Assembly (NCBI RefSeq): GCF_040362765.1
Contig: NZ_BAABWK010000001.1
Span: 1,155,501-1,219,500, forward strand
From: Pyruvatibacter sp. HU-CL02332
GTDB lineage: Bacteria; Pseudomonadota; Alphaproteobacteria; CGMCC-115125
Direction: 5' to 3'
Length of the DNA: 64,000 bases
The notes beneath the pieces were generated by a model. The model had not been told where the DNA came from and made no database searches. It saw only the letters and a list, made by a program, of their open reading frames with translations. A program made the translations under genes and the position numbers. Position 1 is the stretch's first letter. Each line of letters begins with the position of its first letter. Of the stretch, positions 38,237 through 58,062 are shown piece by piece.

Positions 38237-38263
38237 CGGCGCCCTCATGGACTGAGGACGCCG
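38237..38263. repeat. Hairpin between CYP153 paralogues 2 and 3
   Basis: CGGCGCCCTCA-TGGAC-TGAGGACGCCG, 11-bp arms with one mismatch, sits 25 nt upstream of the paralogue 2 start. There is no T-run, so it is more likely an intercistronic RNA stem or operator than a terminator. Confidence 0.4.
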
Positions 38264-38291
38264 CGCCAAACTTACAAAATGTGTGTGCCAG

Positions 38292-39548
38292 TTAGGCGGG
38301 AATGCGAACTGGCATATAGGTGTAGCCCTTAACAAAGGGAGAGCGGGTGCGGGTCGGCTCTTCCATCACTTCGATCTTCGGGAAACGCTTCAGCAGCTCT
38401 TCCCAGAGGATCTTGATCTGAAGTTCGCCAAGGCGATTGCCCACACAGCGATGGATGCCATACCCAAATGACATCTGACGGCGGGCATTCGGGCGGTCGA
38501 TGATCACGTCATCCGCATTCTCAAAAATTGCGGTGTCCCGATTGCCGGAGACATACCACATGGCAACCTTGTCACCCTTCTTGATCATCTGGCCATTCAG
38601 CTCAATGTCTTCGAGCGCCGTACGCCGCATGTGAGCGAGTGGTGTCTGCCAGCGAATGATTTCTGACGAAAGGTTGGGGATCAGGCTTGGGTCTGCAATC
38701 AGCTTGTCGTACTCGCCGGCAAACTTGTTGAGCGCATAGACGCTGCCTGTCATGGAGTTGCGGGTCGTATCATTGCCGCCAACGATCAGCAGAATGATGT
38801 TCCCCAAATATTCCATGGGATCCATGTTCTTGGTGGATTCGCCACTGGCCAGCATGCTGATGAGATCATTGCCTGGCGTATCGGAGTTCACCCGATCGTT
38901 CCAAAGGCCGGTAAAGGCCTCAAGGCATTCCATCAGCTCGCCACGCCACTGCTCTTCACTCTTGTAGATTTCCGGGTTGTCGCGACCGGTCGCCACGTCA
39001 GACCAACGGGTCAGGCGGCGGCGCTCTTCAAACGGGAAATCAAACAGCGTTGCCAACATCATGGTGGTGAGTTCGATGGACACCTTGTCCACCCAGTCAA
39101 AGGTTTCACCGCGCGGCAGTTCATCCAGGATCAGACCCGTGCGCTCACGAATGAGACCTTCCCAGTTCTGCAGGTTCTTGGGCGCAACGATGGGCTGCAC
39201 CGTAATGCGCTGTTTGTCGTGCTTGGGTGGGTCCATGGCGATGAACATCGGCGCCTTGAAGTCTTCCAACGGGTCCGCCAGCGTGATGGCACCTTCAGAG
39301 GAAAAGACATGATGGTTGGTATCCACCGCCATGATGTCTTCGTAGCGCGTCACAGACCAGTAATCGCCGAATTCGTCCGAATGCCCCTTATGGACGGGCG
39401 CCTCTTTGCGCAGCCGCTCGAAATAGGGCCAGATGGCATCGTCCTGAAAGAGCGCGCCATCAGCAACATTGATGTCTTCAAGAGGCATGCTCCAGGCACG
39501 TTCTTGATGGTCGATTGTGGAAGATGTTTCGACGGCGGCCTGTGACAT
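38292..39548 (-). CDS. Cytochrome P450, CYP153 type (paralogue 3)
   Basis: 418 residues, RBS AGAGGA 5 nt before the ATG. The heme ligand is Cys368; GGNDTTRNSM and FGYGIHRCVGNRLGELQ are intact. It groups with paralogue 4 by the VATGRxNPEI loop, which replaces MVTTD in paralogues 1 and 2. It also lacks four residues after VFSS, where the other copies have (W/S)xHGG. That shortens the loop near the B-C region, which is known in P450s to contact substrate, so its chain-length preference may differ. Sequence divergence between pairs is clear, so this is an old duplication rather than an assembly artefact. Confidence 0.92.
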   Translation of the reverse strand: MSQAAVETSSTIDHQERAWSMPLEDINVADGALFQDDAIWPYFERLRKEAPVHKGHSDEFGDYWSVTRYEDIMAVDTNHHVFSSEGAITLADPLEDFKAPMFIAMDPPKHDKQRITVQPIVAPKNLQNWEGLIRERTGLILDELPRGETFDWVDKVSIELTTMMLATLFDFPFEERRRLTRWSDVATGRDNPEIYKSEEQWRGELMECLEAFTGLWNDRVNSDTPGNDLISMLASGESTKNMDPMEYLGNIILLIVGGNDTTRNSMTGSVYALNKFAGEYDKLIADPSLIPNLSSEIIRWQTPLAHMRRTALEDIELNGQMIKKGDKVAMWYVSGNRDTAIFENADDVIIDRPNARRQMSFGYGIHRCVGNRLGELQIKILWEELLKRFPKIEVMEEPTRTRSPFVKGYTYMPVRIPA

Positions 39549-39568
39549 GGGTGTTCCTCTTGATTGAT

Positions 39569-39607
39569 GGCGTCAGACGCCCGGGACCATGCGACATGGC
39601 ACCGGGC
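39569..39607. repeat. Hairpins between CYP153 paralogues 3 and 4
   Basis: A perfect GGCGTC-A-GACGCC (39569-39581) overlaps the start of a second stem, GCCCGGGACCATG-CGA-CATGGCACCGGGC (39579-39607, 11 of 13 pairs). They lie just 3' of the paralogue 4 stop and upstream of the paralogue 3 RBS. No T-run follows. Confidence 0.4.
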
Positions 39608-39626
39608 GGTCTTGTCGTTTCAACGG

Positions 39627-40892
39627 CTAGGCAGGAATGCGAACCGGCATGTAGGTGTAGCCCTTCACAAAGACGGACTTCGTGCGTGTCGGCTCTTCCA
39701 TCACTTCAATCTTCGGGAAGCGCTTGAGAATTTCTTCCCACAGAATCTTGATCTGCAGCTCGCCCAACCGGTTACCCACGCAACGGTGGATGCCATACCC
39801 AAATGCCATCTGGCGGCGGGCATTTGGACGATCGATGATCACCTTGTCCGCGTCTTCAAACACACTCTCATCGCGGTTGCCTGACACGTACCACATGGCC
39901 ACCTTGTCGCCCTTCTTGATGTGAGCACCGTTCAGAACGATGTCCTCAAGAGCCGTCCGGCGCATATGCGCCAGCGGCGTCTGCCAGCGAATGATCTCGG
40001 ACGAAAGGTTCGGGATCAGATCCGGGTTGGCGATCAGCTTGTCATACTCACCAGCAAACTTGTTGAGGGCATAGACGCTGGCCGTCATGGAGTTGCGGGT
40101 CGTGTCATTGCCACCAACGATGAGCAGGATGATGTTTCCCAAATACTCCATCGGGTCCATGTTCTTCGTGGACTCGCCACGGGTCAGCATGGTGATGAGA
40201 TCATTGCCCGGCGTATCGGAATTGATGCGTTCATTCCAGATGCCTGTAAAGGCTTCAAGGCACTCCAGCAGTTCCGCGCGCCACTGCTCATCGTCAGCAA
40301 CAATCTCCGGGTTGTTACGACCAGTTGCCACATCAGACCAGCGCGTGAGTTTGCGGCGCTGTTCGAACGGGAAGTCGAACAGGGTCGCAAGCATCATGGT
40401 TGTGAGTTCGACGGAGACATTGTCCACCCAGTCGAACACTTCACCGCGGGGCAGCGCATCGAGAATCTGACCGGTACGTTCGCGGATCAGGCCTTCCCAG
40501 TTCTTCAGATTGTTTGGCGCCACAATCGGCTGCACCGTGATGCGCTGCTGATCATGCTTGGGTGGGTCCATCGCAATGAACATGGGCAACTGAAAATCAG
40601 AGATCTGATCGAACAGAGTGATGCCACCATGTTCCCAGCTGGACGAGAACACATGGTGGTTGGTGTCCACCGCCATGATGTCTTCGTAGCGGGTCACAGA
40701 CCAGTACTCACCGAAGTCGGGGGAGTAGGCTTTGTGGACCGGAGCTTCCTTACGCAGGCGCTCGAAATACGGCCAGATGGCATCCGCCTGGAAAATGTCC
40801 GGATCAGCGATATTGATGTCCTTGAGCGGCATGCTCCACGCACGCTCTGTGTGATCAATCTCTGCTTCAGGTTGGATAGCTGCCTGCGACAT
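39627..40892 (-). CDS. Cytochrome P450, CYP153 type (paralogue 4, first in the row)
   Basis: 421 residues from the ATG at 40892, with GGAGGAAA about 8 nt upstream; the frame from 40919 adds nine unlikely residues. The heme ligand is Cys371, the I-helix GGNDTTRNSMTA. It retains the SWEHGGITLFDQ loop missing in paralogue 3 but shares the VATGRNNPEI loop with it. It is the 5'-most member of the four-gene row, 78 nt before paralogue 3, and so nearest the likely promoter region at 40893-41090. Predicted role: n-alkane or fatty-acid omega-hydroxylation. Confidence 0.92.
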   Translation of the reverse strand: MSQAAIQPEAEIDHTERAWSMPLKDINIADPDIFQADAIWPYFERLRKEAPVHKAYSPDFGEYWSVTRYEDIMAVDTNHHVFSSSWEHGGITLFDQISDFQLPMFIAMDPPKHDQQRITVQPIVAPNNLKNWEGLIRERTGQILDALPRGEVFDWVDNVSVELTTMMLATLFDFPFEQRRKLTRWSDVATGRNNPEIVADDEQWRAELLECLEAFTGIWNERINSDTPGNDLITMLTRGESTKNMDPMEYLGNIILLIVGGNDTTRNSMTASVYALNKFAGEYDKLIANPDLIPNLSSEIIRWQTPLAHMRRTALEDIVLNGAHIKKGDKVAMWYVSGNRDESVFEDADKVIIDRPNARRQMAFGYGIHRCVGNRLGELQIKILWEEILKRFPKIEVMEEPTRTKSVFVKGYTYMPVRIPA

Positions 40893-41048
40893 GAACCGTT
40901 TCCTCCGGTTGGTTGGCACTCATACGAATGCCGACATGACAAACGACCCCGCCTCCCCGTTTGTTTCCACGAGGTAAGCCGAGCGTGCCGCATGTGACCT
41001 GCGGCCAGTTGGGAAAAGAGTAACGCAGCGGAAATCGAGGTTCTATAA

Positions 41049-42272: not shown

Positions 42273-43718
42273 CTAGAGGCCTGCAGCACTGGCCATTTCA
42301 GCAGGGCCATTGCTCCAACCGCCGCCCAGTGCCCGGAACAGGCCGATCTGGAACTGGGTTGTGTTTGCCTGCGACTGGGCAAGCGTGATGTCTGCATCTG
42401 CCAGCGTCCGCTCGGCATCCAGCACGGTAATGAAATCGTCAGCCCCCAACTCGTAGCGCGATTGCGCCATACGGGCGGACTGAGCTGCCGCATCGCGAGC
42501 CAGCGTCAAAGCAGCCTGCCGTTCGAGCTCCGCTGCATAGTTCTGCAACGCCGTTTCAGTTTCTTCCAGCGCAACCAGAACAGCCTGGTCAAACTCCGCC
42601 AGCGCCTGGGCCATACCGGCTTCCGCCGCCGCAATCCGAGCACGACCGGCCCAGATGTTCGGGAACGTCCATGAGATCAAAGGGCCAAACGAAAATGAAA
42701 CAGCACCATCCTCCTTGAGGCTGGCAATCTGAAGGGCTGTCGTATCAATTGAGCCGCCAAGAGATATCTGCGGGTAGAGTTCTGCCGTCGCAACGCCAAC
42801 ACGTGCTGCAGCAGCCTTCAGAGCATTCTCCGCCTCACGCACATCTGGACGTCGCGCAATCAGGCCCGCACCGTCACCTACCGGAATGGTCGCCGCGACA
42901 ATCGGCGCTCGCGTGCAATCCGTTGCTGCCTCCACCATCGCTGCAGGTGGCTGGCCCACAAGCGTTGCCAGACGGAAGCGTGCATTTTCACGATCCGCTT
43001 TCAACTGTGGCAGCGAGGCTTTGGTGTTTTCTACATTCACCTGCGCACGAACAATATCGAGCTTGGTGCCTTGACCGCCTTCGGTCAGCTGACGTGTCAG
43101 ATCCACCGTACGCGTTTGAAGGTTCAGGGTATTCTCTGTTACGGCAATCTGCTGATTGGCAGAACAGATATCCGCATAGGCCCGAGCCGTTTCAGCGGCA
43201 ATCGTAATGCGCGATGTGTGCAGCGCTGATTCAGCGGCCTGCGCATCAGCACGCGCTGCGGCAACTGAATTGCGAACACGGCCAAACAGATCAATCTCGT
43301 AAGAGAGGCTGAAGCCGGACGTATAGGAAAGGTCTTCCTTGTTGGCTTTCTGCGTTGCCTGTTGCGCTGCATCACGTTCATAGGTAGCGCCTGCATTAAT
43401 ATCCGTAGACGGAAGGTATGCACTACGGCTCTCGCCAAGCGCTGCAAGCACACGGTCGAGATTGGCAAACGCAGCCTTTAGGCTGTTGTTTTCGGATAGG
43501 GCCTTGGTGATGTACCCATCAAGCTCCGGGTCATCATAAAGACGCCACCAATTGGTGTCGGGGGCTTCTGGAGAAACAGGTGCAATTGCAGCAGTCACGA
43601 ATTCGCTCTGGGCAATCGGCGTAGTCGCGACGGTGGATTTGGGAACGTCCGGCGCAAATGAGCACGCGGCCAAAGCCGCACTTGCCACACCACATGCCAC
43701 TTTTGAACACGTACCCAT
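42273..43718 (-). CDS. Outer-membrane efflux lipoprotein (NodT/TolC family)
   Basis: 481 residues. The signal peptide ends at the lipobox ALAA-C19, predicting lipidation. Two homologous halves of about 200 residues carry long amphipathic helices and beta-strands, such as NWWRLYDDPELDGYITKALSENN at the start of the first half, YEIDLFGRVRNSVAAARADAQAAES and GLIARRPDVREAENALKAAAARVG. That is the standard pattern of RND/MFS outer-membrane channels. It would trimerise and dock with an adaptor and pump. No pump is adjacent; the RND pair at 27675-31917 lacks a channel gene and is a plausible partner. This pairing is inference. Confidence 0.9.
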   Translation of the reverse strand: MGTCSKVACGVASAALAACSFAPDVPKSTVATTPIAQSEFVTAAIAPVSPEAPDTNWWRLYDDPELDGYITKALSENNSLKAAFANLDRVLAALGESRSAYLPSTDINAGATYERDAAQQATQKANKEDLSYTSGFSLSYEIDLFGRVRNSVAAARADAQAAESALHTSRITIAAETARAYADICSANQQIAVTENTLNLQTRTVDLTRQLTEGGQGTKLDIVRAQVNVENTKASLPQLKADRENARFRLATLVGQPPAAMVEAATDCTRAPIVAATIPVGDGAGLIARRPDVREAENALKAAAARVGVATAELYPQISLGGSIDTTALQIASLKEDGAVSFSFGPLISWTFPNIWAGRARIAAAEAGMAQALAEFDQAVLVALEETETALQNYAAELERQAALTLARDAAAQSARMAQSRYELGADDFITVLDAERTLADADITLAQSQANTTQFQIGLFRALGGGWSNGPAEMASAAGL

Positions 43719-43821
43719 TGCCTGCTCTCCTGAACGCCACCCTTCGGATGGCAGAATTTCAGGAAGAACAGTGCCTTATTCTGGTTAACACGACCCTTAT
43801 TGGGGCCTGACGGCGCCAGCC

Positions 43822-44619
43822 CTACTCGACGGAGCCCACGGCAATCCAGTCAACCCGACAATCAGAAATTGTTGAGGCCCCGGCAGCCCGAATGGTCAGA
43901 TCAAACTTGTTTTCAGTGATGCTGCCAGCTTCAAACGCAAGAATGACATTTGGCTCGCGGTAATAGGCTTCCAGGAGGTTTGGCGCCAAAAACACTTTGG
44001 GAGGGGAGGTGAACCCGGACTCAAAAGACACCGTCCGGGTCATGACTTCTTCCCAGCTATCTTCTGTCGGCCGATAGGCATGACCGCATTCAAATGAGCC
44101 TGCCTGGAGCCGGGACGCCATGAGCTTGTCGGCCAGCACGGACTGGACGGCCCCGGACCCAGCAACGGCAGCCGCCACCTTATCGAGCTTGCGATCCAGG
44201 TCCTCAGCGGCCGAAATCATGCGCTCGGCTTTAGCTGCTTTCTTGGCCAGCTTTCGGTAGGCCGCAGCAATGTCTTCCGCTTCATCACGGAGCTGCTCCT
44301 GCTGGCCACGCAGACTGGAGACTTCACGTTGGGCAAACCGTACTTCGTCAGTAATGCTCTCAGCCTGACGAAGCAAAAACTCGCTCAAAACCTCGCGATT
44401 GTCACCACCACCGCCGCCACCGTCAGCGTAGAGATTGCGCCAGTCCCAGGTGCCCTGATTTACCCAGAAGAAGAAGCCAAGGCCGCCTGCCAGCACGACA
44501 AGCAGCAAGAAGCTCAGCACACCAAACGTACCACCGCTATTGCGGTTGGTCCGCCCACGCACTTCAGCGTCAATCAGTCCACGCAATGCGGCGCGCTGTT
44601 CGTCAGAAAATTCAGCCAT
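43822..44619 (-). CDS. Membrane-anchored coiled-coil protein with H-type lectin domain
   Basis: 265 residues. A cytosolic N-terminus (1-30) is followed by one membrane helix at about 32-53, a glycine hinge (67-72), a coiled coil (about 75-150) and a C-terminal domain at about 172-265. The last domain ends RVSFESGFTSPPKVFLAPN-like, ILAFEAGSITENKFDLTIRA and DCRVDWIAVG; the F-x-x-x-PPxV start and the closing VxWIAVG are the signature of H-type lectins, known as N-acetylgalactosamine-binding domains in snails and Dictyostelium. RBS GAGG precedes the ATG. It is divergent from the nfrA-like gene, so it sits beside a predicted amino-sugar polysaccharide locus. Lectin activity is inferred. Confidence 0.72.
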   Translation of the reverse strand: MAEFSDEQRAALRGLIDAEVRGRTNRNSGGTFGVLSFLLLVVLAGGLGFFFWVNQGTWDWRNLYADGGGGGGDNREVLSEFLLRQAESITDEVRFAQREVSSLRGQQEQLRDEAEDIAAAYRKLAKKAAKAERMISAAEDLDRKLDKVAAAVAGSGAVQSVLADKLMASRLQAGSFECGHAYRPTEDSWEEVMTRTVSFESGFTSPPKVFLAPNLLEAYYREPNVILAFEAGSITENKFDLTIRAAGASTISDCRVDWIAVGSVE

Positions 44620-44938
44620 GCCCTGCCTCAGCCATTTGCCGGTTCATCTACATGAAGATTTACCGATTTCTATCCGATTGGACGGTCGCATACATCGCAT
44701 CCGCCGCAAGGCACCCACTGGCAAGACCTATACCGCAAATACGACGAGCGTGTGCCCATCGTTCTGTTTACGGATTGTTAATCCGAATGCACGTGTCGGC
44801 ACAGCAACACTCTGCTCGTTGGTTAACCGATTTGTCTTAGGTTTCAGCGCAATCTGCCAATTCAGGCTATGATGCCCACGACCCGGCTAGACAATTGCAT
44901 GGTTGCGGGAAATAGCTCTTTTGCGGGAACAACACCTG
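44620..44938. promoter_or_regulatory. Divergent control region, lectin gene / nfrA-like gene
   Basis: This 319-bp gap holds a perfect inverted repeat CGGATT-GTT-AATCCG (44771-44785) and a palindrome GGTTAACC (44821-44828), both placed to act as operators for the divergent lectin and nfrA-like genes. A TATGAT at 44868-44873 could be a -10 box for nfrA, though no good -35 box is seen at the right distance. No ORF in the gap looks real. Confidence 0.4.
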
Positions 44939-46591
44939 ATGACGTCACGACCCACCATTGCATTTCGCAACGCAGGCATCGCCATTCTGGCAGCCGGTGT
45001 CTTGCTGCCGGCAACACTTTCAGCAGCAACGCCTGATCAGCCCAATCAAATGGTTGTTGCCCAGGCCGAAATTGGCCAGACGCTCATCGCGGATGGCGAC
45101 AAAGCATGGCAGGCAGGAAATCCGACACAGGCCGCAGACCTGTATAGCCGCGCCGTGGAAACAGGAAACCTCACCTCAGCCCAGCGCGCCTATGCCTTAA
45201 GAGCCCTTGGCTTCGTCTCCGCCGAGATCGGCAATCCTGACGAGGCAGCCCGCGCCTTCAAGGCATCCTTGAACATTGAGGACAATCCGGGCGCTGCCTT
45301 GGGTTTGGCTGTCTCACTTCGCCAGGCAGGCGATACCGCAGGCGCGAACGCAGCCCTTGCCAAGGTAGACCGGCGGGTCCTCACGACGGACCAGTTACCA
45401 TTCTATCTCGACGAGAAAGCATCTGCGTCTCTACCGGGAAACCCTCAGGCAGCCATCACCGCTCTTGAAGAAGCCGTCAGTCTGAACGAAAGCGTCTACC
45501 GGCGTGTTCGCCTGTCTCAGCTTTATCGCCAGACAGGTGACACCACAAAGGCTCAGGCAAATCTCGAAAAAGCAGAAGCCGCCCTGGCCGCACAGCCTGG
45601 CGCTGCGGCGGATGTTGCATATGCAGCCTTGACGTCCGGCGACGACGCGGCTGCGGCCCGCTATTTTGAGCAAGCACGCGCGGGCGGTGGGCTCACATCC
45701 AACGGCCTTGCCGATTACGGCTATGCCCTCAAGCGCCAGGGCGATCTGGATGGCTCAACGGAACTCTTCCGCGATGCCATTGATACCCATGACGCCAGCC
45801 CGGACGCACAGGACGCATCTGGCAAGCGCCGCTTGTTCCGCCTGCGCCGTGAAGTCTCGTACACCGAACGGACCTGGTACGCGGATGCATTCCTGTCCTT
45901 CCGTGACAACTCAGTGGATCTGGTCAGCGCGCCGGAAGCCGGCGAAAGCGACAGCTTTGCAGGCTGGGAAGTCGGCTACATTGCGCCACAGATCGGCAGC
46001 ATGAAACACCGCGCCCTCACCCTGTTCACCCGTGGTTTCACGGGGTTTGAAGGCGACACACTCAATACACGCGACGAATCCCTGCAGCTGGGTGTCGGCG
46101 CCCGATTCCGTCCCCTGACTGACCATAATCTGGTTTTCACCGTCGAACGGCTAATTTCCGTTGGCGATGCGGCACGCGATGCCTGGCTTCTGGTTGCCGG
46201 TTATTCTCTGGCTGACGGCTTGGATATTGATCCCGTGCTCAACGACTGGGAAAGCTGGAACGTCTATGCCGACGTGGCTTACATCCCTGACGACCCCCGC
46301 TTTGTTGCGACCAACTTGGAAGGCTGGTACGGCCATAGCTTCAAGCTGAGTGAGTCAGTCGTGTTGACGCCCCATGTGGTGGCAGCTGCCAGATACTCAG
46401 ACGACAAGTTCGACACCAACCGTGTTGTTGAAGCGGGCCCCGGTGTTGGCCTGCGCTACTGGTTCAATGAAGACAAGTACACCGGGCCGCGGTCATATTT
46501 CGACTTCAAGGTTCAGTACCGCTACGCGTTCGTCAACGAAGATGATCGTGACGATGGCGCATTCGTTGGAACGGCCATTCTTCACTACTGA
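44939..46591 (+). CDS. NfrA-like outer-membrane protein, TPR plus beta-barrel
   Basis: 550 residues from the ATG at 44939; the TTG at 44903 adds 12 residues before the signal peptide (FRNAGIAILAAGVLLPATLS, cleavage near residue 29). About 40-270 are TPR units (DKAWQAGNPTQAADLYSRAV and so on). About 285-550 form a beta-barrel with alternating strands and a final aromatic residue (FVGTAILHY), the outer-membrane targeting signal. This matches the C-terminal part of NfrA, the E. coli phage N4 adsorption protein, which has the same TPR-then-barrel order but is longer. With NfrB and WecB in the same locus it is probably the exporter of an N-acetylmannosamine-type polysaccharide. Confidence 0.8.
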   Translation: MTSRPTIAFRNAGIAILAAGVLLPATLSAATPDQPNQMVVAQAEIGQTLIADGDKAWQAGNPTQAADLYSRAVETGNLTSAQRAYALRALGFVSAEIGNPDEAARAFKASLNIEDNPGAALGLAVSLRQAGDTAGANAALAKVDRRVLTTDQLPFYLDEKASASLPGNPQAAITALEEAVSLNESVYRRVRLSQLYRQTGDTTKAQANLEKAEAALAAQPGAAADVAYAALTSGDDAAAARYFEQARAGGGLTSNGLADYGYALKRQGDLDGSTELFRDAIDTHDASPDAQDASGKRRLFRLRREVSYTERTWYADAFLSFRDNSVDLVSAPEAGESDSFAGWEVGYIAPQIGSMKHRALTLFTRGFTGFEGDTLNTRDESLQLGVGARFRPLTDHNLVFTVERLISVGDAARDAWLLVAGYSLADGLDIDPVLNDWESWNVYADVAYIPDDPRFVATNLEGWYGHSFKLSESVVLTPHVVAAARYSDDKFDTNRVVEAGPGVGLRYWFNEDKYTGPRSYFDFKVQYRYAFVNEDDRDDGAFVGTAILHY

Positions 46592-46612
46592 TCCAAATAA
46601 AAATCGGATCCG

Positions 46613-47155
46613 CTACTCGCCGAGCGTTTTTTGCGCCAGCTCACGCTCGGCTTGTGTCAGCCCGCCGGCAGCAAGAGCTGCCGCGTAGTCCACGCGCGCT
46701 GCCACCACTTCACCTGCAACATCACGGGCAATCGCGCGATATAAAATCGCGCGTCCACTGGTCGCATCACGCGCGGCAGCCTCACTGGCAAACTCGGCTG
46801 CTTGGGCTGTCCTGCCTGATTGAATCGCAGCCTGTGACGAGATGATCCAGACCTGCGCTCGATCCGGATTGGTTGCACGTGCCCGGGCCAGATAGACTTC
46901 CGCTTCTGCGTACTGACCATCCGCCATCAGCCCATAGGCCCGATGGATAAATGGATAACTCTTGAAGTCCGCCATGGTCGTCGTGGGAAAAGGCGCGGCC
47001 TGCTCATCGGTCAAGGTCTGCGCGCGCATTACCGACAGATCCGGAATCCACATTTCCTTCGTGGCGAACCAGATACCCACGGCGCCAAAGACCATGAAGG
47101 CCGTCAGCACCAACGAAGCCTTGATACGTGCCCGGCGTTTTTCACTGGGAGACAT
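46613..47155 (-). CDS. Single-span TPR membrane protein of the Nfr-like locus
   Basis: 180 residues. One N-terminal membrane helix (about 13-30, SLVLTAFMVFGAVGIWFAT) is followed by a periplasmic region with at least two TPR-like helix pairs (YGLMADGQYAEAEVYLARARATNP at about 74-97, then AAIQSGRTAQAAEFASEAAARD and later ARVDYAAALAAG). I recognise no named family. It begins 2 nt after the NfrB-like stop and is the last gene of the wecB-nfrB operon, so it may link the inner-membrane synthase to the TPR part of the NfrA-like protein. That role is inference. Confidence 0.72.
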   Translation of the reverse strand: MSPSEKRRARIKASLVLTAFMVFGAVGIWFATKEMWIPDLSVMRAQTLTDEQAAPFPTTTMADFKSYPFIHRAYGLMADGQYAEAEVYLARARATNPDRAQVWIISSQAAIQSGRTAQAAEFASEAAARDATSGRAILYRAIARDVAGEVVAARVDYAAALAAGGLTQAERELAQKTLGE

Positions 47156-47157
47156 CT

Positions 47158-49521
47158 TTAGCGCGCCCCCTCTAGCTCTTTTTGAACCTGCTTGACCTGA
47201 GACGCCGGGATAAGCCCAAGCTCAACAGCGACACTCAGGATATCAAGCGGTGGATGCGGCTGCAGGTCCAGTGCATCACTCAACTGGGCTTTGGATATGG
47301 CTCCGGATGACACAAGCGCGTCACCGATCAGCTGGACATTGTCGCCTCGTAGCGCCAGCGCATTGGTCAATGCGTCATGTGACACGAGCCCAAGGCGCAC
47401 CAGCACGTCACCAAGCAGCACGTGGCGGCGCCGCATATGCCGCCACAAACGTTCGATACCGTCATGATCAACCATCTGCAAACGCCGCAGAAGAACCGCG
47501 TCTTTGATTTCCCGATCGATGGGTGTGTGATCCCACGCATAACGCAGCCCGAACGCCACATCGCTGCGCGGTGCAATCACAATGCTGATACGACGGACAG
47601 AGGAGAGGCCGGCGCGCAGTGCCTCAATCTGATCCTTCGAGAGAGGCTCCGCAGCAGCCAGCTTCAATTCACCGTTGGAGAGCGACACAGGCACGACTGC
47701 AAACCGAGCCGCATCACGCGGAGACAGCTCCGCAAGCGCCTCAGCCTGAACCTTGAGCGCATCAAATCCTTCAAACGCTACCCCCGCCTGCTCAGCAAAC
47801 GCATTGGCCAGACTGTCTTCGTCCACCAGGGCCTGATCAAGAAGCGATAACCCAAAGGGGCGATAGGAATCCTGTTGCTTGGCCAGCGCTGTCTCTACAT
47901 CTGCTGCTGCAATGGCGCCCCAATAGGTCAGCACCTCACCAATCTTGGGTTTGCCCTGCTTCAGTTCGGCAAGAGATGGATAGGCATGGGTTGTCTTGTC
48001 CCATGTCAGCCGCTGGCCGGAAATCCGGTACCAGAGATACTGCTTGAGGGCGCGCAAGCTGGCACGGAAGCCGATCCAGTTCGCCACCACCGCCCGCAAT
48101 GGAGACAGCGGCACATAGATCAGTCCGTGCGTTCGCCCGACAAACCACGCGCGATGGAACAGCCTGTTGAGCAGAAAGAACAGATTGGCGGCGATGATGT
48201 ACCAGACCCAGCTGCCCGGTTCGATCAGTGGCGGCATCTGCCACAGATCCGGAATGTAATTGAGCGCCAGATAGTAGGCCGCAATCTGCAGAACAATTGC
48301 ATAACCAATAATGGCTGCTGGAGCGGTGATCATGCCCTTACGATCACGATACAGGAAGTACAGATCCTGCCACCGGCCTTGCCAGCCAAGTTGTTCCCAC
48401 CCCAGAAACGAAATGCCAAGCGTCCACCGGGCCTTCTGGCGGATGGAGGCCCACATCTGATCCGGGAAGAACTCCTTGGTGGAGACGATCTCGCGCTTTG
48501 TCCGCATGACCTTGCGGCCAGTGATCCAGCTGGCCCGTTCACGGGGCACTTCAGCCCAGTAGCGAACAAAAGCGCCGGGCATATCAAGGTCATGCAGGCG
48601 CATGGCGATGTCATAGTCTTCCGTCAGACTGTCCGTGTTAAACGGCTGATCATCGGTCGCAGCAGACAGGGCGATAAGCGCGTTACGTGAAAAGGCGCTA
48701 GCAACACCGGCGCTCGGCACGATGCCCGTCATCGCTTCGCGCACCAGCAGGTCCTTGTTATGCCACTCGGCAAACTCGTCCATGTAATGGCAGGCCACCA
48801 TGTCCAGCGGATCCCGGTTCATGGAGAATACCGGCAACTGCATGAAGTCGCGTGATGGCAGCACCCAGTTGATCACCCTCAAGGAGAGTGGGTTCACCAC
48901 ATCCTCGGAGTCCTGCATGACAAAGCCATCGAACTTCTCACCAGTTTCTTCTTCGTACAGAAAAATCCGCTGTACGATCCAATTGAGGCAATCGGCCTTG
49001 CTGGTGGGTCCTGGGTGTCCGACCTCTGCGCGGTGCACATTGGGGTAGCGCGCAGCCATACGATCCACTTCACGTGCCGAATCCGGATCGTTGGAATAGG
49101 TACCTGCGAAAATATGGAAGTTGTCGTAATCGACCGTGTTGATGGTGTTGGAGATCATCCGCGCGATCACATCGCTCTCGTCCCATGCGGGCACGATGAT
49201 AGCGAGCTTGAGCTGCGGCACAGCCTTCAGGCTCTTCAGCTTGCGCGGTAGCTCATGCGGATCCTTGTCACCCAGCCGCTTTAATCTCAGCCACCAGTAA
49301 TAAAGGTCGATAAAGAGGTCTTCCGCACCGCTGACAAAAATCACCAGTGCTATCGTCAGCATCAAGAACTTGATGACAAACCAAAGGACGGCAAACGCCT
49401 CTACAAGGTCGAAGCCGAAAGACTGGGAGGCAAGATAGGACCAGTCGAGCAGAAACACCCACTCGATACCGAGCAGGATGTTGCTGACCATGTCCTGGAA
49501 CGCACTAAGCGTTTCCGCCAT
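47158..49521 (-). CDS. NfrB-like glycosyltransferase with C-terminal MshEN domains
   Basis: 787 residues; the start ATG at 49521 overlaps the wecB stop as TGATG. Membrane helices lie at about 43-65, 400-422 and 438-455. The family-2 transferase domain has PAWDE (111-115), DSED (204-207), TEDYD (300-304) and QKARW (362-366), the polymerising-synthase set seen in cellulose synthase and NfrB. From about 525 there are MshEN-type repeats: KIGEVLTYWGAI at 526, a second half at 555 spaced as in known c-di-GMP binders but with PFG instead of R-L-G, and two to three further helices with LGDVLVRLG and IGDALVSSG. It probably polymerises N-acetylmannosamine under c-di-GMP control; the altered second motif makes binding uncertain. 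Confidence 0.87.
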   Translation of the reverse strand: MAETLSAFQDMVSNILLGIEWVFLLDWSYLASQSFGFDLVEAFAVLWFVIKFLMLTIALVIFVSGAEDLFIDLYYWWLRLKRLGDKDPHELPRKLKSLKAVPQLKLAIIVPAWDESDVIARMISNTINTVDYDNFHIFAGTYSNDPDSAREVDRMAARYPNVHRAEVGHPGPTSKADCLNWIVQRIFLYEEETGEKFDGFVMQDSEDVVNPLSLRVINWVLPSRDFMQLPVFSMNRDPLDMVACHYMDEFAEWHNKDLLVREAMTGIVPSAGVASAFSRNALIALSAATDDQPFNTDSLTEDYDIAMRLHDLDMPGAFVRYWAEVPRERASWITGRKVMRTKREIVSTKEFFPDQMWASIRQKARWTLGISFLGWEQLGWQGRWQDLYFLYRDRKGMITAPAAIIGYAIVLQIAAYYLALNYIPDLWQMPPLIEPGSWVWYIIAANLFFLLNRLFHRAWFVGRTHGLIYVPLSPLRAVVANWIGFRASLRALKQYLWYRISGQRLTWDKTTHAYPSLAELKQGKPKIGEVLTYWGAIAAADVETALAKQQDSYRPFGLSLLDQALVDEDSLANAFAEQAGVAFEGFDALKVQAEALAELSPRDAARFAVVPVSLSNGELKLAAAEPLSKDQIEALRAGLSSVRRISIVIAPRSDVAFGLRYAWDHTPIDREIKDAVLLRRLQMVDHDGIERLWRHMRRRHVLLGDVLVRLGLVSHDALTNALALRGDNVQLIGDALVSSGAISKAQLSDALDLQPHPPLDILSVAVELGLIPASQVKQVQKELEGAR

Positions 49522-50717
49522 CAAGAGGCGGATCGCCGACCAGTACCATCCTTGGCACCATCCGGCCCTTCTGTTTCACCGCTACGAACAACACGCAAAG
49601 CACCAACCTCGCGCGCCAGCAGCGAGGCAATGCGTTCACCCGCCTTACCATCACCAAACGGGTTGCCGCCCTGCGCCATGACCTGGCGGTCCGTTTCATG
49701 AGTGAGCAGGTGGATCGCCAGTGTTTCGATATCATCACGGTCAGTGCCGACAAGTTTTGCAACACCAGCGTCCAGCGCTTCGGTGCGCTCGGTTACCTTG
49801 CGCATCACAAGCGTGGGCACACCCAACGTCGCGGCCTCTTCCTGCACACCGCCTGAGTCAGTCAGGACAAGCGACGAGCGACGCAATACGGATACAAAGT
49901 CTCCATAGGCAAGCGGAGGCGTCAGTCGCACACCCGGATGCGTATCGAGAACAGCCGCGAGTGGGTCCCGCACAACAGGGTTGGGGTGCACCGGCAAGAT
50001 GATTTCAGCATCAGGGACGGCATCGGATATAGACGCAACGGCGCGCGCAATGCCCTCAATCTGCTTGCCCCAGCTTTCCCTGCGATGGGTCGTAACAAGC
50101 ACAAGCCGCTTGCCTTCCTGCGGTGCCTTAAGCGTTTCAGGCCATGCTGGCAGCGTCGGGAGGACGCTCAGCAAAGCGTCGACAACAGTATTGCCTGTGA
50201 CGTGGATTCGCCTGTCGGAAAATCCTTCAGCGCGCAGGTTTGCAGCGGCGTTTTCGGTGGGCGCAAAATGGAGCTGTGCCAGACGGGCAATGATGACCCG
50301 AATGCTTTCCTCCGGGTTTGGATGGTCAAAATCAAACGAGCGCAGACCTGCTTCCACATGGGCCACAGGAATGCCCCGGGCAGCAGCAGCAAGGGCACCA
50401 GCAAGAGCAGACGAGGTGTCGCCTTGAACAATCACAAGCTCCGGATCAGACGTGACCAGCGCTGGTGCCAGAGCGGCAACAGTTGCCCCGACTTGAGCCG
50501 ATACGCCCGCAGGCACATCCGTCAGCTCAACAGTCATGTCCGGTTTGACGCCGAAATCAGCAAATGCCTGATCAGCCAGAGAACTGTGCTGGCCAGTGGC
50601 GATCCACGTTGGCGCAAAAATTTCGGGGCGTTTCGCCAACGCGGCATAGACCGGCGCCAGCTTGAGGATCTCAGGCCGGGTACCACTGATAATGCTTATG
50701 CGATGAACTGCTGCCAC
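49521..50717 (-). CDS. wecB: UDP-N-acetylglucosamine 2-epimerase (non-hydrolysing)
   Basis: 398 residues from the GTG at 50717 (GGGA 5 nt upstream); the TTG at 50759 is the longer alternative. GTRPEILKLAPV, QGDTSSALAGALAA, HVEAGLRS, NPEESIR, TGNTVVDALLSV, TTHRRES and DSGGVQEEA are the UDP-binding and catalytic segments, and the catalytic Asp, Glu, Glu, Arg and His of E. coli WecB are all kept. It converts UDP-GlcNAc to UDP-ManNAc in the cytosol. First gene of a tightly packed operon with the NfrB-like synthase and the TPR protein, so it is probably a dedicated supplier for that polymer rather than a general cell-wall enzyme. Confidence 0.92.
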   Translation of the reverse strand: MAAVHRISIISGTRPEILKLAPVYAALAKRPEIFAPTWIATGQHSSLADQAFADFGVKPDMTVELTDVPAGVSAQVGATVAALAPALVTSDPELVIVQGDTSSALAGALAAAARGIPVAHVEAGLRSFDFDHPNPEESIRVIIARLAQLHFAPTENAAANLRAEGFSDRRIHVTGNTVVDALLSVLPTLPAWPETLKAPQEGKRLVLVTTHRRESWGKQIEGIARAVASISDAVPDAEIILPVHPNPVVRDPLAAVLDTHPGVRLTPPLAYGDFVSVLRRSSLVLTDSGGVQEEAATLGVPTLVMRKVTERTEALDAGVAKLVGTDRDDIETLAIHLLTHETDRQVMAQGGNPFGDGKAGERIASLLAREVGALRVVRSGETEGPDGAKDGTGRRSAS

Positions 50718-51073
50718 GTTGTCCCAATCTCGTCCTGCCTCGGACGCGTTTTCGCCCAAAGGTAATCAAACCCTTAACTTTCGGTCTCCAGAGACCACAT
50801 CCCGCCTGTCTGGAACATGAACGGCAGTTCAGACCGGCAAAAAAGCCTGCTGAGGCAGGGGTTTTGGCTTTCGATTGTGACCTGTCAGCCGCACTTGAAT
50901 GACCCAGAATGGGACACTTGCGATTGAACAAGCCCAATTTGAGCAAAACCCCGCCTCAAATCGGATTTCCCCTCTGACACAGCAAGAGATACGCCGCTTT
51001 TCTCATCCACATGTCGGGTTTCTGCGTATCCTGAAGCAGTGATTTAACAACGAGCTATGAGCGCCCTATCTCC
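50718..51073. promoter_or_regulatory. Divergent control region, wecB operon / crtY; two hairpins
   Basis: 356 bp with no credible ORF. Two structures lie on the minus-strand side toward wecB. CCTGC-CTCA-GCAGG followed by CTTTTTT (stem at 50846-50859, T-run just downstream on -) resembles an intrinsic terminator about 125 nt before the wecB start. ATTTGAG and CTCAAAT (50937-50943 and 50955-50961) form a second inverted repeat. Together they could make a wecB leader with attenuation, or end a short RNA. No clear crtY promoter was seen. Confidence 0.4.
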
Positions 51074-52264
51074 GTGTCCGCTTCCCCACATTTGCCAAAC
51101 CTCAAATACGACCTGCTGCTGGCAGGGGCGGGAATGGCAAATGCTTTGATCGTACGGGCCCTCAAAGTCTCTCACCCCGATTTGACAATTGGGATGGTGG
51201 ACCGGAACCCGCAGCCCGACCCCAGCCACACCTGGTCTTTCCACACCAGTGACATTTCTGACAGTGCACGCGCCTGGCTTGACCCGCTGATAGCCTATGA
51301 GTGGCATGGGCAGGATGTCCGTTTTCCCGGACATGCCCGCGCGCTGAAAACCGGCTACGCCAGCATCAGCGAAGAAAAACTCCGCAATCAGCTTGTACGA
51401 GACATGGAAGCAACGCCGATCCTCGAAGGCGAAGTTGCCTCTTTGGATGAGGAAGGCGTGACACTCAAGGGCGGACGCCGCATCGACGCCCACGCCGTCA
51501 TCGACGGACGTGGCCAGAAAGCGAACAATTCACTGACCATTCGATTCCAGAAATTCGTTGGCCAGGAACTGGAGCTTGAAGAGCCACACGGGCTGACCCG
51601 CCCCGTCATCATGGACGCCACGGTTCCACAGGAAGACGGCTACCGCTTCTTCTACCTGTTGCCCCACACACCGACCTCATTGTTGGTGGAGGACACCCGA
51701 TACTCCGACGGCGCTGAGTTGAACGACGACGTATTTCGCGATACCATTGAGGACTACGCCACCGGCAAAGGGTGGAGGATTAAGACAATCCTGCGCGAAG
51801 AGCGCGGTGTGCTCCCAATCGCCCTTGGTGGCAATTTTGATACTTTCTGGGAAGAGACCCCGAAGGGCACAGGCAGAAGCGGACTGGCCGCAGCCCTCTT
51901 TCACCCCGTGACCGGCTACTCGCTCCCGGACAATGTGCGTCTGGCGCAGGCGATTGCCGCTCTGCCACACATCACATCACAAACTGTCGCGCAGACAACC
52001 CACGCCCACGCCAAGGCCGCCTGGGACAAGCGCGGATTTTATCGCCTGCTGAACCGCATGCTGTTTGACGCCGCGCGCCCGCAGGATAGGTACAAGGTTC
52101 TGGAGCGCTTCTACCGCCTGCCCGAACCTCTCATCGCCCGGTTTTACGCTGGAACGACAACACTGCCTGACAAGGCCCGCATTCTCACAGGCAAGCCGCC
52201 CGTCCCCATCATGGCTGCGATGCGCTGCCTCAAGGAACCTAAGCCCGGAGTATCACAGACATGA
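51074..52264 (+). CDS. crtY: Lycopene beta-cyclase
   Basis: 396 residues from a GTG at 51074; no strong RBS, and no better in-frame start. An NAD(P)/FAD-type Rossmann motif LLLAGAGMANAL lies at 14-26. VDRNPQPDPSHTWSFHTSD, the family's DxNP...HTWSFH segment, follows, then INDGRGQKANN-like VIDGRGQ, FFYLLPHTPTSLLVEDT, and GYSLPDNVRLAQAI near residue 280. The enzyme forms both beta-rings of beta-carotene from lycopene, at the inner membrane. Its stop overlaps the crtI start (ATGA), so crtY-crtI-crtB form one operon that faces the crtE/crtW/crtZ operon. Confidence 0.93.
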   Translation: MSASPHLPNLKYDLLLAGAGMANALIVRALKVSHPDLTIGMVDRNPQPDPSHTWSFHTSDISDSARAWLDPLIAYEWHGQDVRFPGHARALKTGYASISEEKLRNQLVRDMEATPILEGEVASLDEEGVTLKGGRRIDAHAVIDGRGQKANNSLTIRFQKFVGQELELEEPHGLTRPVIMDATVPQEDGYRFFYLLPHTPTSLLVEDTRYSDGAELNDDVFRDTIEDYATGKGWRIKTILREERGVLPIALGGNFDTFWEETPKGTGRSGLAAALFHPVTGYSLPDNVRLAQAIAALPHITSQTVAQTTHAHAKAAWDKRGFYRLLNRMLFDAARPQDRYKVLERFYRLPEPLIARFYAGTTTLPDKARILTGKPPVPIMAAMRCLKEPKPGVSQT

Positions 52265-53775
52265 ATATCGCAACGCCTTCATCAAAGAAGGCCGTCGTTA
52301 TAGGTGCAGGATTCGGGGGCATTGCCCTCGCCATTCGTCTGCAGTCAGCAGGCTTTCAGACAACGCTGCTTGAAAAGCGCGACAAGCCCGGTGGACGAGC
52401 CTACGTCTATGAGGATCAGGGTTTTACGTTTGATGCAGGCCCCACGGTCATCACAGACCCATCCGCACTCGAGGAGTTGTTCGCACTCTCCGGCCGTAAG
52501 ATGGAAGACTATGTGACCCTTCTACCGGTTGACCCGCTCTACCGCCTGGAATGGGAAGACGGCACAAGCTTCAATTACACAAACGATTCCGACGAGCTGT
52601 TCCGTCAGATCAACAAGCTGAACCCCAAGGACGTGGACGGCTACAAGCGGTTTCTGGATTACTCCCGGGAGCTGATGGAAGAGGGCTACATCAAGCTGGG
52701 CCACGTGCCGTTCCTCAATTTCCGCTCCATGATCAAGGCCGCACCACAACTGGCCCGCCTGCAAGCCTGGCGCAGCGTGTACTCAAAGGTTTCAAGTTTC
52801 GTCGAAGATGAGCACCTGCGTCAGGCGTTCAGCTTCCACTCGCTGTTGGTCGGCGGCAATCCGTTTGAGACATCCGCCATCTATGCGTTGATCCACGCAC
52901 TGGAGCGTGAATGGGGCGTTTGGTTTGCCAAAGGCGGCACCGGCGCACTGGTGAGCGGCATGCTTGATCTGTTCAAGGATCTGGGCGGCGAGCTCTATCT
53001 AAACGCGGACGTTGCGGAGATCACCACATCCGGCACCAGGACAACCGGCGTGACCTTGAAAGACGGCACCCACTTTGTCGCCGACATGGTCGCCAGCAAT
53101 GCAGACGTGGTTCACACCTACGAAAAAATGCTTGGCCACACAGACCGCGGACGCAAGGAAGCTGCCCGCCTCAAGTCCAAACGCTTCTCCATGTCGCTCT
53201 TTGTCATCTATTTCGGCGCCAGCAAGCCTTACGAAGATATTCAGCATCACACCGTCATCTTCGGGCCGCGTTATCGCGAGCTGATCGGTGAAATCTTCAA
53301 GGGCAAGGAACTGGCCGACGACTTTTCCCTGTATCTCCATGCCCCAACGCGCACGGATCCGTCGCTGGCGCCAGAAGGGCATGGATGTTTCTACGTATTG
53401 TCACCCGTGCCGCATTTGGGACACGCCGACATCGACTGGGATGTGGAAGGCCCCAAATACCGCGACCGCATTCTGGGCTATCTCGACAAGCACTACATGC
53501 CCGGCCTGATGGACAATCTCGTCACGACACGTCACTTCACACCAAACGATTTCCGCGATGAGCTGAACTCCTACAATGGTTCCGCTTTCTCGCTGGAACC
53601 GGTACTGACCCAGTCAGCATGGTTCCGCAGCCACAACCGTGATGACAAGCTGCAAGGCATGTACATCGTCGGTGCAGGCACGCATCCAGGTGCCGGTATT
53701 CCAGGGGTTGTGGGGTCTGCCAAAGCAACCGCGCGTATCGTTCTGGAAGACTTCGACATGGAGCCTGTGGCCTAG
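52261..53775 (+). CDS. crtI: Phytoene desaturase
   Basis: 504 residues, the size of bacterial four-step CrtI. FAD-binding GAGFGG at 15-20 is followed by LLEKRDKPGGRAYVYEDQGFTFDAGPTVITDP, here noted by its G-G-R and DAGPT landmarks. Near the C-terminus is MYIVGAGTHPGAGIPGVVGS (about 460-480), the CrtI signature. It desaturates phytoene to lycopene at the membrane. The ATG overlaps the crtY stop. The next gene, crtB, begins 18 nt downstream. Confidence 0.96.
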   Translation: MNIATPSSKKAVVIGAGFGGIALAIRLQSAGFQTTLLEKRDKPGGRAYVYEDQGFTFDAGPTVITDPSALEELFALSGRKMEDYVTLLPVDPLYRLEWEDGTSFNYTNDSDELFRQINKLNPKDVDGYKRFLDYSRELMEEGYIKLGHVPFLNFRSMIKAAPQLARLQAWRSVYSKVSSFVEDEHLRQAFSFHSLLVGGNPFETSAIYALIHALEREWGVWFAKGGTGALVSGMLDLFKDLGGELYLNADVAEITTSGTRTTGVTLKDGTHFVADMVASNADVVHTYEKMLGHTDRGRKEAARLKSKRFSMSLFVIYFGASKPYEDIQHHTVIFGPRYRELIGEIFKGKELADDFSLYLHAPTRTDPSLAPEGHGCFYVLSPVPHLGHADIDWDVEGPKYRDRILGYLDKHYMPGLMDNLVTTRHFTPNDFRDELNSYNGSAFSLEPVLTQSAWFRSHNRDDKLQGMYIVGAGTHPGAGIPGVVGSAKATARIVLEDFDMEPVA

Positions 53776-53793
53776 CGCCAGGAAAACCAGACC

Positions 53794-54747
53794 ATGGATG
53801 ACGTCGTCGCCGAAGCCCGCACCACGATCCAGCAGGGCTCCAAGTCCTTTGCCGGCGCTGCCGCCCTGTTTGGGCGCGACATGCGCGAAAGCGCCTACAT
53901 GCTCTATGCATGGTGCCGCTACTGCGATGATGTAATCGACGGTCAGGAACTCGGTTTTGCGAAGGCCGAGGAAGACACGAGCGATCCCCACGCCCGCTTT
54001 GAGATGCTGTTGGAGCGCACCCGTGCCGCCTATCGCGGCGAGCCGGTGAATGATCCGGTATTCACGTCGTTCCAGCGCGTGGTGCAAAAGCATGATGTAC
54101 CAGAGCAATATCCACTGGATCTGCTGCGCGGCTTTCATATGGATGTGGCGGAACACACCTACGCCACCCCAGCAGACACATTGACCTATGGCTACTACGT
54201 GGCGGGGGCAGTGGGCGTCATGATGGCAATGGTCATGGGTGTGCGCGACGAGCATATTCTTGACCGTGCCTGCGACCTCGGCATCGGTTTTCAGCTCACC
54301 AATATTTCGCGCGACATCATTGATGACGCCCGCATTGAGCGCATCTATCTGCCAAAGAGCTGGCTGGAAGAAGAGGGCGTTGCCTATTCCACGGCGGCTA
54401 TTCTTGATCCAGACAACCGTCCTGCCATCGCCCGCGTCGCCCGCAGGCTGGTGATGGAAGCAGAGCCCTACTACGCATCATCCGTTTATGGCATTGCCCA
54501 TCTGCCGTTTCGCGCCGCATGGGCCATCGCCACGGCAAAACGCATCTATCGCCGTATCGGCATGGAGGTGCTGGCCAAGGGCGAACAGGCCTGGGACGAC
54601 CGTGCGGGAACCTCAACGCTACAGAAAATTGGCTATGTGTTCCTGGGATTGGGCGATGCAATCGTGTCGCGCTTTCGCAAATCGGCGACAGGCACCAACC
54701 GCACCGGGCTCTGGACCCGCGCTACGGATCTCGAGGCTGTTGACTAG
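53794..54747 (+). CDS. crtB: Phytoene synthase
   Basis: 317 residues. The first aspartate-rich motif is YCDDVIDGQE (D45, D46, D49) and the second is NISRDIIDDARIERIYLP (D about 175). FQLTNI and RRLVMEAEPYYASS are standard squalene/phytoene synthase segments. It joins two geranylgeranyl diphosphates into phytoene, supplied by crtE on the other strand. The stop overlaps the crtZ stop by 4 bp in a convergent arrangement. Confidence 0.95.
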   Translation: MDDVVAEARTTIQQGSKSFAGAAALFGRDMRESAYMLYAWCRYCDDVIDGQELGFAKAEEDTSDPHARFEMLLERTRAAYRGEPVNDPVFTSFQRVVQKHDVPEQYPLDLLRGFHMDVAEHTYATPADTLTYGYYVAGAVGVMMAMVMGVRDEHILDRACDLGIGFQLTNISRDIIDDARIERIYLPKSWLEEEGVAYSTAAILDPDNRPAIARVARRLVMEAEPYYASSVYGIAHLPFRAAWAIATAKRIYRRIGMEVLAKGEQAWDDRAGTSTLQKIGYVFLGLGDAIVSRFRKSATGTNRTGLWTRATDLEAVD

Positions 54748-55217
54748 GCAGCCTTCTTGCTCGCTCTAAGTTGCTCTCGGAGTTTGTCCGGGTCCGGTGC
54801 ATATACAAATCCGAACGACACACATCCCTCCCGCGTATGCACCGCATGATGAAGATGGTGACTTTCCACCAGCCGCCCTAGATAGCCACCCTTGGGGTGG
54901 TATCTGAAAGGCCAGCGTTGATGCACCAGCCCATCATGGGCCAGATAATACAGCACGCCATAGGCAGTGATACCGGCAGCCACCCACCAAAGCGGCAACC
55001 ACAGATAGGTACCCGCCAGGAAAAGCAGGATCGAGAACCCGGCAAAGACGAGCGAATACAAATCGTTCTTCTCAAACCATCCGTTGCGGGCACGGTGATG
55101 GCTTTCGTGCCACGCCCAGCCCCAGCCATGCATGATGTTCTTATGTGCCCACCAGGCAAACAGCTCCATAGCTGCAATGGTGCCAAGCACAATTGCCAGA
55201 GGGCCAAACATACTCAT
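54744..55217 (-). CDS. crtZ: Beta-carotene 3-hydroxylase (fatty acid hydroxylase superfamily)
   Basis: 157 residues, the usual CrtZ size. Di-iron histidine motifs: HKNIMH (25-30), HESHH (37-41), then HDGLVHQRW near 97 and ESHHLHHAVH near 120. Three to four membrane helices. It adds 3-hydroxyl groups to beta-ionone rings, giving zeaxanthin from beta-carotene or astaxanthin from canthaxanthin. The ATG overlaps the crtW stop as ATGA. Confidence 0.94.
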   Translation of the reverse strand: MSMFGPLAIVLGTIAAMELFAWWAHKNIMHGWGWAWHESHHRARNGWFEKNDLYSLVFAGFSILLFLAGTYLWLPLWWVAAGITAYGVLYYLAHDGLVHQRWPFRYHPKGGYLGRLVESHHLHHAVHTREGCVSFGFVYAPDPDKLREQLRASKKAA

Positions 55218-56002
55218 GCTGCGCGAGCCTCCCCGTTATGAGCCACAAGCGACACCCGGCGAACCGCAGGTAGACGCCACCATGGTTCGTTTGGATGATG
55301 GTGGTGCTCGAGATGGTAGCCGAAGTGAAAACAGGTCAACAGCGACAACACCGGCGGCAGATCAACGCTGCGGGCCCGATGGTCATCTTCAAACGGTTCG
55401 CCCGCAATCGGGCGGTGCGGCTGATAGGTACCAAAATAGAAAAGCTGCAAAGACGACAGCAGCGCGGGCAGCGCCCAGAACACCAGCAGATTGACAATCG
55501 GCGCCCCGATCACGAACACATAGACCGCAAGAATGGCCGTGAGAATGCCAAACTCCTTCAGCCCGAAATAGTATCGAAAGAAGCCGTAGTACCAGGCCAC
55601 AAAGCTGTTGGGATTTTCAAAATTGTAGTCGGGATCATCGGCAGTCCCCGGCCTTGCGTGATGCCGCATATGTTCCCTGGCCAGGGCCTCAAACGAGAAC
55701 CCCGCGTAGATCAGCAGGCAGAACCTCGCTATGCCACGGTTCAGCCCCGGTCGGAACGGCGCTATGGACCCGTGCATACCGTCATGGGCAACAATGAAAA
55801 GCCCGACCGACAGCACGGTCTCGGTTGCCACTAACACGGGTGCCAGCCATACCCACACGCCGGAAAGCGGCAAAATGAATACGGCCGCAACGTGCACTAC
55901 GAGCCAGGGCACAATGACTACGGCAGACACAGCAAGACCCATCACCGTCTGCCGGTTTCGCGATAGCTTGGGCAGCCGCCCGTCACGGAGCGGATTCGTC
56001 AT
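55214..56002 (-). CDS. crtW: Beta-carotene 4-ketolase
   Basis: 262 residues from the ATG at 56002, overlapping the ABC permease stop as ATGA; the longer frame to 56080 is rejected. Histidine motifs of the membrane di-iron desaturase fold: HDGMH (73-77), HMRHH (111-115) with HHARPGTADDPDYNF, and HLEHHHHP (230-237). The trio with FGTYQPHRP and the ending CFHFGYHLEHH...NEPWWRLP is characteristic of CrtW rather than fatty-acid desaturases. It adds 4-keto groups to beta-rings. With crtZ it allows astaxanthin-type products. Confidence 0.93.
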   Translation of the reverse strand: MTNPLRDGRLPKLSRNRQTVMGLAVSAVVIVPWLVVHVAAVFILPLSGVWVWLAPVLVATETVLSVGLFIVAHDGMHGSIAPFRPGLNRGIARFCLLIYAGFSFEALAREHMRHHARPGTADDPDYNFENPNSFVAWYYGFFRYYFGLKEFGILTAILAVYVFVIGAPIVNLLVFWALPALLSSLQLFYFGTYQPHRPIAGEPFEDDHRARSVDLPPVLSLLTCFHFGYHLEHHHHPNEPWWRLPAVRRVSLVAHNGEARAA

Positions 56003-58052: not shown

Positions 58053-58062
58053 GAGATGCCTG

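Follow-up and report, generated by a model that had tools for sequence, protein, structure and literature searches.

The genes considered here lie in a window of 64,000 nucleotides, the whole stretch of DNA that was analysed, and occupy its positions 43822-50717. They encode a polysaccharide synthase of the NfrB family with its putative precursor enzyme and exporter, and a membrane-anchored protein carrying an H-type lectin fold (hereafter the H-fold protein, encoded by the lectin gene). The features, with the evidence by which each was recognised, are as follows.

43822-44619, minus strand: lectin gene, H-type-fold protein of 265 aa (PF09458, AlphaFold and Foldseek)
44620-44938, no strand: divergent intergenic region between the lectin gene and nfrA, probable bidirectional control region (conservation in the sister species)
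44939-46591, plus strand: NfrA-like protein with a signal peptide, about eight TPRs and a predicted 12-stranded C-terminal barrel (NfrA_C, AlphaFold and Foldseek)
46613-47155, minus strand: membrane-anchored TPR protein of 180 aa, probable detached N-terminal domain of NfrA (alignment and profile)
47158-49524, minus strand: NfrB, a GT2 synthase with TM helices and two MshEN motif pairs (NF012033, NF053729 and the match to E. coli NfrB)
49521-50717, minus strand: WecB/NfrC, a non-hydrolysing UDP-GlcNAc 2-epimerase (TIGR00236)
43800-59236, no strand: island of about 15.4 kb holding the lectin, nfr and carotenoid genes among others (comparison with the related genome G002)

All five genes named in an earlier sequence-only reading are present at their positions, and their families are secure by Pfam and NCBI profile matches. 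That reading had also placed wecB, nfrB and the TPR gene in one overlapping operon, which holds for wecB and nfrB (overlap of 4 bp) but not for nfrB and the TPR gene, which are 2 bp apart. The nfrA gene is convergent to this operon and lies outside it, and the lectin gene is in turn divergent from nfrA. Compared with their counterparts in the sister species (G001), the five genes show protein identities of 96-97% and dN/dS values of 0.025-0.040 (0.031 for the lectin gene), from which it follows that all are maintained; the pattern indicates purifying selection on each of them and excludes chance ORFs. Elsewhere in the window, an overlapping operon at 6860-18203 on the minus strand encodes a ShlB/FhaC-type outer-membrane transporter (16446-18203), a two-partner-secretion exoprotein of 2181 aa (9904-16449) and a TPR-CHAT (caspase-like) protein of 1021 aa (6860-9925), the CHAT protein being a seemingly unusual partner. 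At 35606-40919 on the minus strand, four cytochrome P450 genes of close similarity lie in tandem, apparently the product of duplication, and several copies are also found in G001 and G002.

The synthase shares 35% identity with E. coli NfrB over 758 aa (E 4e-150) and scores 679 bits with NF012033, while its c-di-GMP motif is matched by NF053729 in three stretches (E 9e-22) and its MshEN domain by PF05157 (E 1.1e-9). GT2 motifs are found at D205 (DxD-type), TED301-303 and QKARW363-367. In E. coli NfrB, mutations have been made at the transferase residues D169, D267 and W330, and at G491, L490 and L537 (PMC8669469). Of these, D169, D267, W330 and G491 correspond to D205, D303, W367 and G529 here, and the MshEN positions L490 and L537 have changed to Ile and Phe, respectively. 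An NfrB profile of eight proteins also matches c-di-GMP-binding domains in the PDB, namely those of MshE (5htl) and PilB/PilF. WecB scores 386 bits with TIGR00236 (cut-off 210), and the gene begins at the corresponding codon in the sister species.

The NfrA open reading frame spans 44903-46591 on the plus strand and matches PF13283 (NfrA_C) with an E value of 3.3e-37; the ATG at 44939 is the likelier start, and MTSRPTIAFRNAGIAILAAGVLLPATLSA reads as a clean signal peptide. Identity to E. coli NfrA is 23% (E 3e-13). The AlphaFold model (pLDDT 82) consists of about eight TPRs followed by twelve strands, and Foldseek aligns it along both parts with E. coli BcsC (9b8a and 9b8h; E 1.5e-9 for 9b8a). 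The protein thus shares with exporters of the BcsC/PgaA type a periplasmic TPR superhelix joined to an outer-membrane barrel, but differs from BcsC in its twelve predicted strands, in belonging to the NfrA_C family and in an NF008520 score far below the cut-off.

Homology, catalytic and c-di-GMP residues, linkage to WecB and the barrel model all agree with the Nfr core that had been proposed for this locus, and there is good support for regarding wecB, nfrB and nfrA as a genuine, c-di-GMP-gated exopolysaccharide system of the Nfr type. Among 89 other nfrB loci (80 relatives from genome contigs and nine from class-wide sampling), wecB lies within the locus in 72 and a recognisable nfrA in 80, and the set of wecB, nfrB and nfrA is therefore an ordinary one. 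Linkage of NfrB and WecB has been described as frequent, with occasional alphaproteobacterial members (PMC8669469). The clusters of Maricaulis, Glycocaulis, Brevundimonas and their relatives have the same gene set and order, with NfrB proteins 44-52% identical to the one described here; they differ in that the recognised nfrA always lies on the nfrB strand and in that their genomes have no H-lectin. In all 80 loci with a recognisable nfrA it is on the same strand as nfrB, and the inverted nfrA of the present locus is unparalleled among them.

Compared with the E. coli system of NfrB, NfrA, YbcH and WecB, whose exported glycan serves phage N4 as its receptor (PMC8669469, PMC8669472), the locus has the same WecB, the same GT2-MshEN synthase with the experimentally tested residues and the same NfrA_C outer-membrane barrel with TPRs, but wecB abuts nfrB, NfrA is divided between two proteins with the barrel gene inverted, and an H-type-fold membrane protein is found instead of YbcH. 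No YbcH homologue was detected among the locus genes compared, and the H-fold protein, having no sequence similarity to YbcH, was rejected as a candidate homologue. Since YbcH of E. coli, an anchored periplasmic protein, is dispensable for N4 infection (PMC8669469), its presence is no essential criterion for an Nfr system. The E. coli polymer and its sugar were themselves inferred from genetics (PMC8669472); by analogy, WecB should supply UDP-ManNAc here and NfrB should polymerise it.

The division of NfrA emerges from comparison with a single-chain NfrA of 798 aa from another alphaproteobacterium (G006; L023:12013-14409). Over 119 aa, the TPR protein matches this chain's residues 71-189 with 39% identity, including an F-x-x-Y/F-P motif ahead of the TPRs, and the NfrA of the present locus aligns with residues 313-796. 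A profile of the NfrA N-terminus built from eight other NfrA proteins, without that of G006, finds the TPR protein at 2.3e-5, again including an F-x-x-Y-P motif as in NfrA of the E. coli type, and this locus's own NfrA only at 0.07. What had been described as a TPR membrane protein is most simply read as the N-terminal module of NfrA on an anchor of its own. It might instead be a generic TPR protein, unrelated to NfrA and following nfrB by chance, as TPRs match easily and other alphaproteobacteria have short NfrA proteins (562-570 aa) in which no additional N-terminal module is obvious, so that the long chain of G006 could be a fusion. We consider this unlikely in view of the motif-bearing match to G006 and the independent profile, and a fusion in G006 would couple the two proteins functionally just as a fission here would. 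As some short NfrA proteins seem to have no such module, either event may lie behind the difference between the two forms, and both tie the TPR protein to NfrA. A second two-ORF layout, in the order nfrB, TPR ORF and short nfrA on one strand, is found in Brevundimonas aveniformis, and pairwise comparison of its TPR ORF with the TPR protein described here detects no similarity.

In the H-fold protein, an Arg-rich N-terminus is followed by a single TM helix at about residues 32-52 (hydropathy 2.4 at 32-35), a long coiled coil at about 73-152 and an H_lectin domain at 170-263 (PF09458; E 4.7e-12, 46.3 bits against a cut-off of 24). The best Foldseek matches to the model of this domain are the agglutinins of Helix pomatia and H. 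aspersa (HPA and HAA), with a TMt of 0.76 and 3.0 Å against 2ccv. The profile and the HPA-like fold together bear out the earlier description of a protein that ends in an H-type lectin domain. With a single N-terminal TM helix and an Arg-rich N-terminus, the coiled coil and the lectin domain should, by positive-inside logic, face the periplasm, and on this anatomy the protein would not be a surface protein. The domain has two cysteines, Cys178 and Cys254, and two are also found in the nearest relative (G232), which would fit an oxidising compartment. The coiled coil suggests an oligomer, whose state is a guess given the low confidence of the AlphaFold monomer model beyond the lectin domain.

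The argument on the sugar site is based on conservation among solved H-type lectin structures, for which four sugar-binding lectins (HAA, discoidin I, discoidin II and SLL-2) were aligned. Positions 64, 84 and 90 of HAA, reportedly sugar contacts in the HPA structure of Sanchez et al. 2006, are Arg, Trp and Tyr or Trp in all four, but Ile, Ala and Ser in the H-fold protein, from which the loop near HAA Gly25-Asp27 is also missing. The protein thus shares with these lectins the H-type beta-sandwich and the PF09458 profile, and differs from them in the lost Arg, Trp and aromatic residue and in its fusion to a TM helix and a coiled coil. The same residues are lost in the G232 relative, whose genome has no nfrB. 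Such losses are not general to bacteria, as the small H-lectins of an alphaproteobacterial family, f23, keep Arg and Trp. From its sequence the H-fold protein cannot be called a lectin of the GalNAc type, and its domain may bind a glycan at another place. A possible origin of the domain in phage fibres was checked against PHROGs, with no usable match.

These features bear directly on the proposal, made from the sequence alone, that the protein is a true lectin whose ligand is the ManNAc/GlcNAc-type polymer of the neighbouring genes, either nascent or at the surface, and which thereby retains this polymer. The Pfam match and the HPA-like fold speak for it, as do the position beside an N-acetyl-sugar polymer system and a periplasmic stalk that could meet a passing chain. 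The shared Arg64, Trp84 and Tyr/Trp90 (HAA numbering) and the Gly25-Asp27 loop are nevertheless gone, the identical losses are seen in a genome without nfrB, and the gene is unlinked to nfr genes outside the genus, while the predicted periplasmic topology argues against retention at the surface. We therefore regard this proposal as very improbable; the protein is unlikely to bind the polymer in the canonical way, and the designation of a self-binding glycan lectin is unsupported.

Linkage of H-type lectin genes to nfr genes, which had been expected elsewhere, was found in only two sister species, and in the other genomes examined the two do not even occur together. In a set of 385 genomes from the class, H-lectin matches occur in 10 and NfrB in 11, and both are present only in this genome and its sister. 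No H-lectin was detected in a whole-genome search of 50 other nfrB-bearing genomes with a model that gave no positive in that run, but otherwise finds the present lectin gene; no NfrB was found in 33 H-lectin genomes outside the genus, whereas the controls G000, G001 and G006 were all recovered. A scan of genome contigs with the lectin protein confirmed a relative in none. These surveys cover sampled and partly incomplete genomes. In the four genomes of the order that were examined, the lectin gene and nfrB are present or absent together.

Membrane-anchored H-fold proteins also occur in other Pseudomonadota (G436, G439, G481, G505, G534 and others; L132-L141 and L146-L153). They resemble the present protein in an N-terminal TM helix, a coil, here short, a C-terminal H-fold and, in most, the absence of the Trp, and differ from it in genomes without nfrB and in frequent neighbours resembling spermidine synthase genes (5 of the 8 loci fetched). 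Coiled-coil H-lectins with a membrane anchor repeatedly lie beside such a gene in a different class of the phylum (L146-L153). H-lectins of family f23, of 116-137 aa, are widespread in one alphaproteobacterial family (L031-L034, L129-L131, L135, L137 and L138), and in G156 one of them (L033) directly follows genes that read as ATP synthase.

Comparison with a third species of the genus (G002; L045) places the whole locus in an island. In that species, an efflux outer-membrane gene directly follows an acyl-CoA dehydrogenase gene, and the counterparts in the window, at 42273-43718 and 59237-60364, are separated by about 15.4 kb containing the lectin and nfr genes, crtY, crtI, crtB, a hydroxylase-like ORF, crtW, an ABC transporter and a prenyl diphosphate synthase gene. 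The genes at 59-64 kb were also considered as RND efflux genes; this was rejected, as they are genes of acyl-CoA metabolism. Neither G002 nor the incomplete G003 contains nfrB, the lectin gene or crtY. No match of at least 11 bp was found between the ends of the island, only one inverted match of 10 bp, and hence no integration mechanism is proposed. The lectin gene probably came or went together with the nfr genes, gain and loss being indistinguishable with four genomes; as the carotenoid genes moved too, joint function gains little support from this.

The intergenic region between the lectin gene and nfrA measures 283 bp (44620-44902), or 319 bp if nfrA starts at the likelier ATG, and contains an open frame of 110 codons. 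In a single pairwise comparison of the two sister species, 44620-44902 is 95.1% identical, compared with 89% for the genes themselves, 71-74% for third codon positions, 62% for the 21-bp gap between nfrA and the TPR gene, 90% for the region between the lectin and efflux genes and 81% for the divergent region between wecB and crtY (Fisher P 4e-8 for the last against the lectin-nfrA region). Rfam gave only a sub-threshold match over 43700-51100, inside the lectin gene and probably due to chance, and none in the intergenic region; folding of its two strands revealed no clear structured RNA (z -0.3 and -1.6), and scans of the region detected neither a sigma-70 consensus site nor a full CtrA site (TTAA-N7-TTAA). 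A 15-bp inverted repeat at 44771-44785 (CGGATT-GTT-AATCCG), with one arm base differing in the sister species, is a candidate regulator site. The simplest reading of this conservation is a dense shared control region, through which the H-fold protein and the barrel would be expressed in step; the same stretch might just as well contain two promoters that work independently.

We consider it about evenly balanced that the locus is an otherwise ordinary Nfr system, newly arranged and with a split NfrA, to which a co-regulated periplasmic H-fold accessory, non-canonical as regards sugar binding, has been added. A role for the H-fold protein in the Nfr system is suggested, modestly, by its adjacency to the nfr genes in two sister species and by the conserved divergent region. 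The main rival to the accessory role is that the protein is a passenger, or serves instead the efflux gene at 42273-43718, the carotenoid and ABC transporter genes or some function in envelope biogenesis. In its favour, linkage and genome co-occurrence with nfr are absent elsewhere, and proteins of the same TM-coil-H-lectin build occur in genomes without nfrB, five of eight loci fetched lying beside a spermidine-synthase-like gene; the lectin gene, moreover, is the outermost of the island and shares its strand with the efflux gene, which lies downstream after a gap of 103 bp. Yet the region shared with nfrA is better conserved than that towards the efflux gene (95% against 90%) and far better than synonymous sites, and the sequence upstream of the efflux gene (to 43799) is retained in G003, which has no lectin gene. 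We regard the passenger role as possible, but rather doubtful. That an H-fold protein without the sugar site was recruited, in one small genus, into a split-NfrA export machine and is co-regulated with its barrel is a tentative proposal, somewhat short of probable.

Under the accessory reading, WecB would convert UDP-GlcNAc to UDP-ManNAc, and c-di-GMP, acting through the MshEN motifs, would activate NfrB to polymerise the sugar across the inner membrane. The polymer would then pass the periplasm along the TPRs and exit through the NfrA barrel, the synthase operon supplying the N-terminal TPR module as a separate inner-membrane-anchored protein and the inverted gene supplying the TPR-barrel part. 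The H-fold protein would be a periplasmic coiled coil anchored in the inner membrane, probably oligomeric, with a control region in common with nfrA; it would most likely serve the export path as an auxiliary scaffold or tether, in a position like that of E. coli YbcH.

Nfr is a recently recognised, c-di-GMP-controlled glycan pathway, in which the polymer, the mechanism of NfrA and the auxiliary parts are poorly defined. That NfrA is naturally divided, with a TPR module in the inner membrane produced alongside the synthase and a TPR-barrel module apart from it, suggests the region of NfrA that contacts NfrB, and the H-fold protein is, at modest strength, a candidate auxiliary factor of Nfr export. 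To our knowledge, no part of a bacterial glycan secretion system with an H-type fold has been described earlier; if the proposal is true, the H-fold protein would be the first such component.
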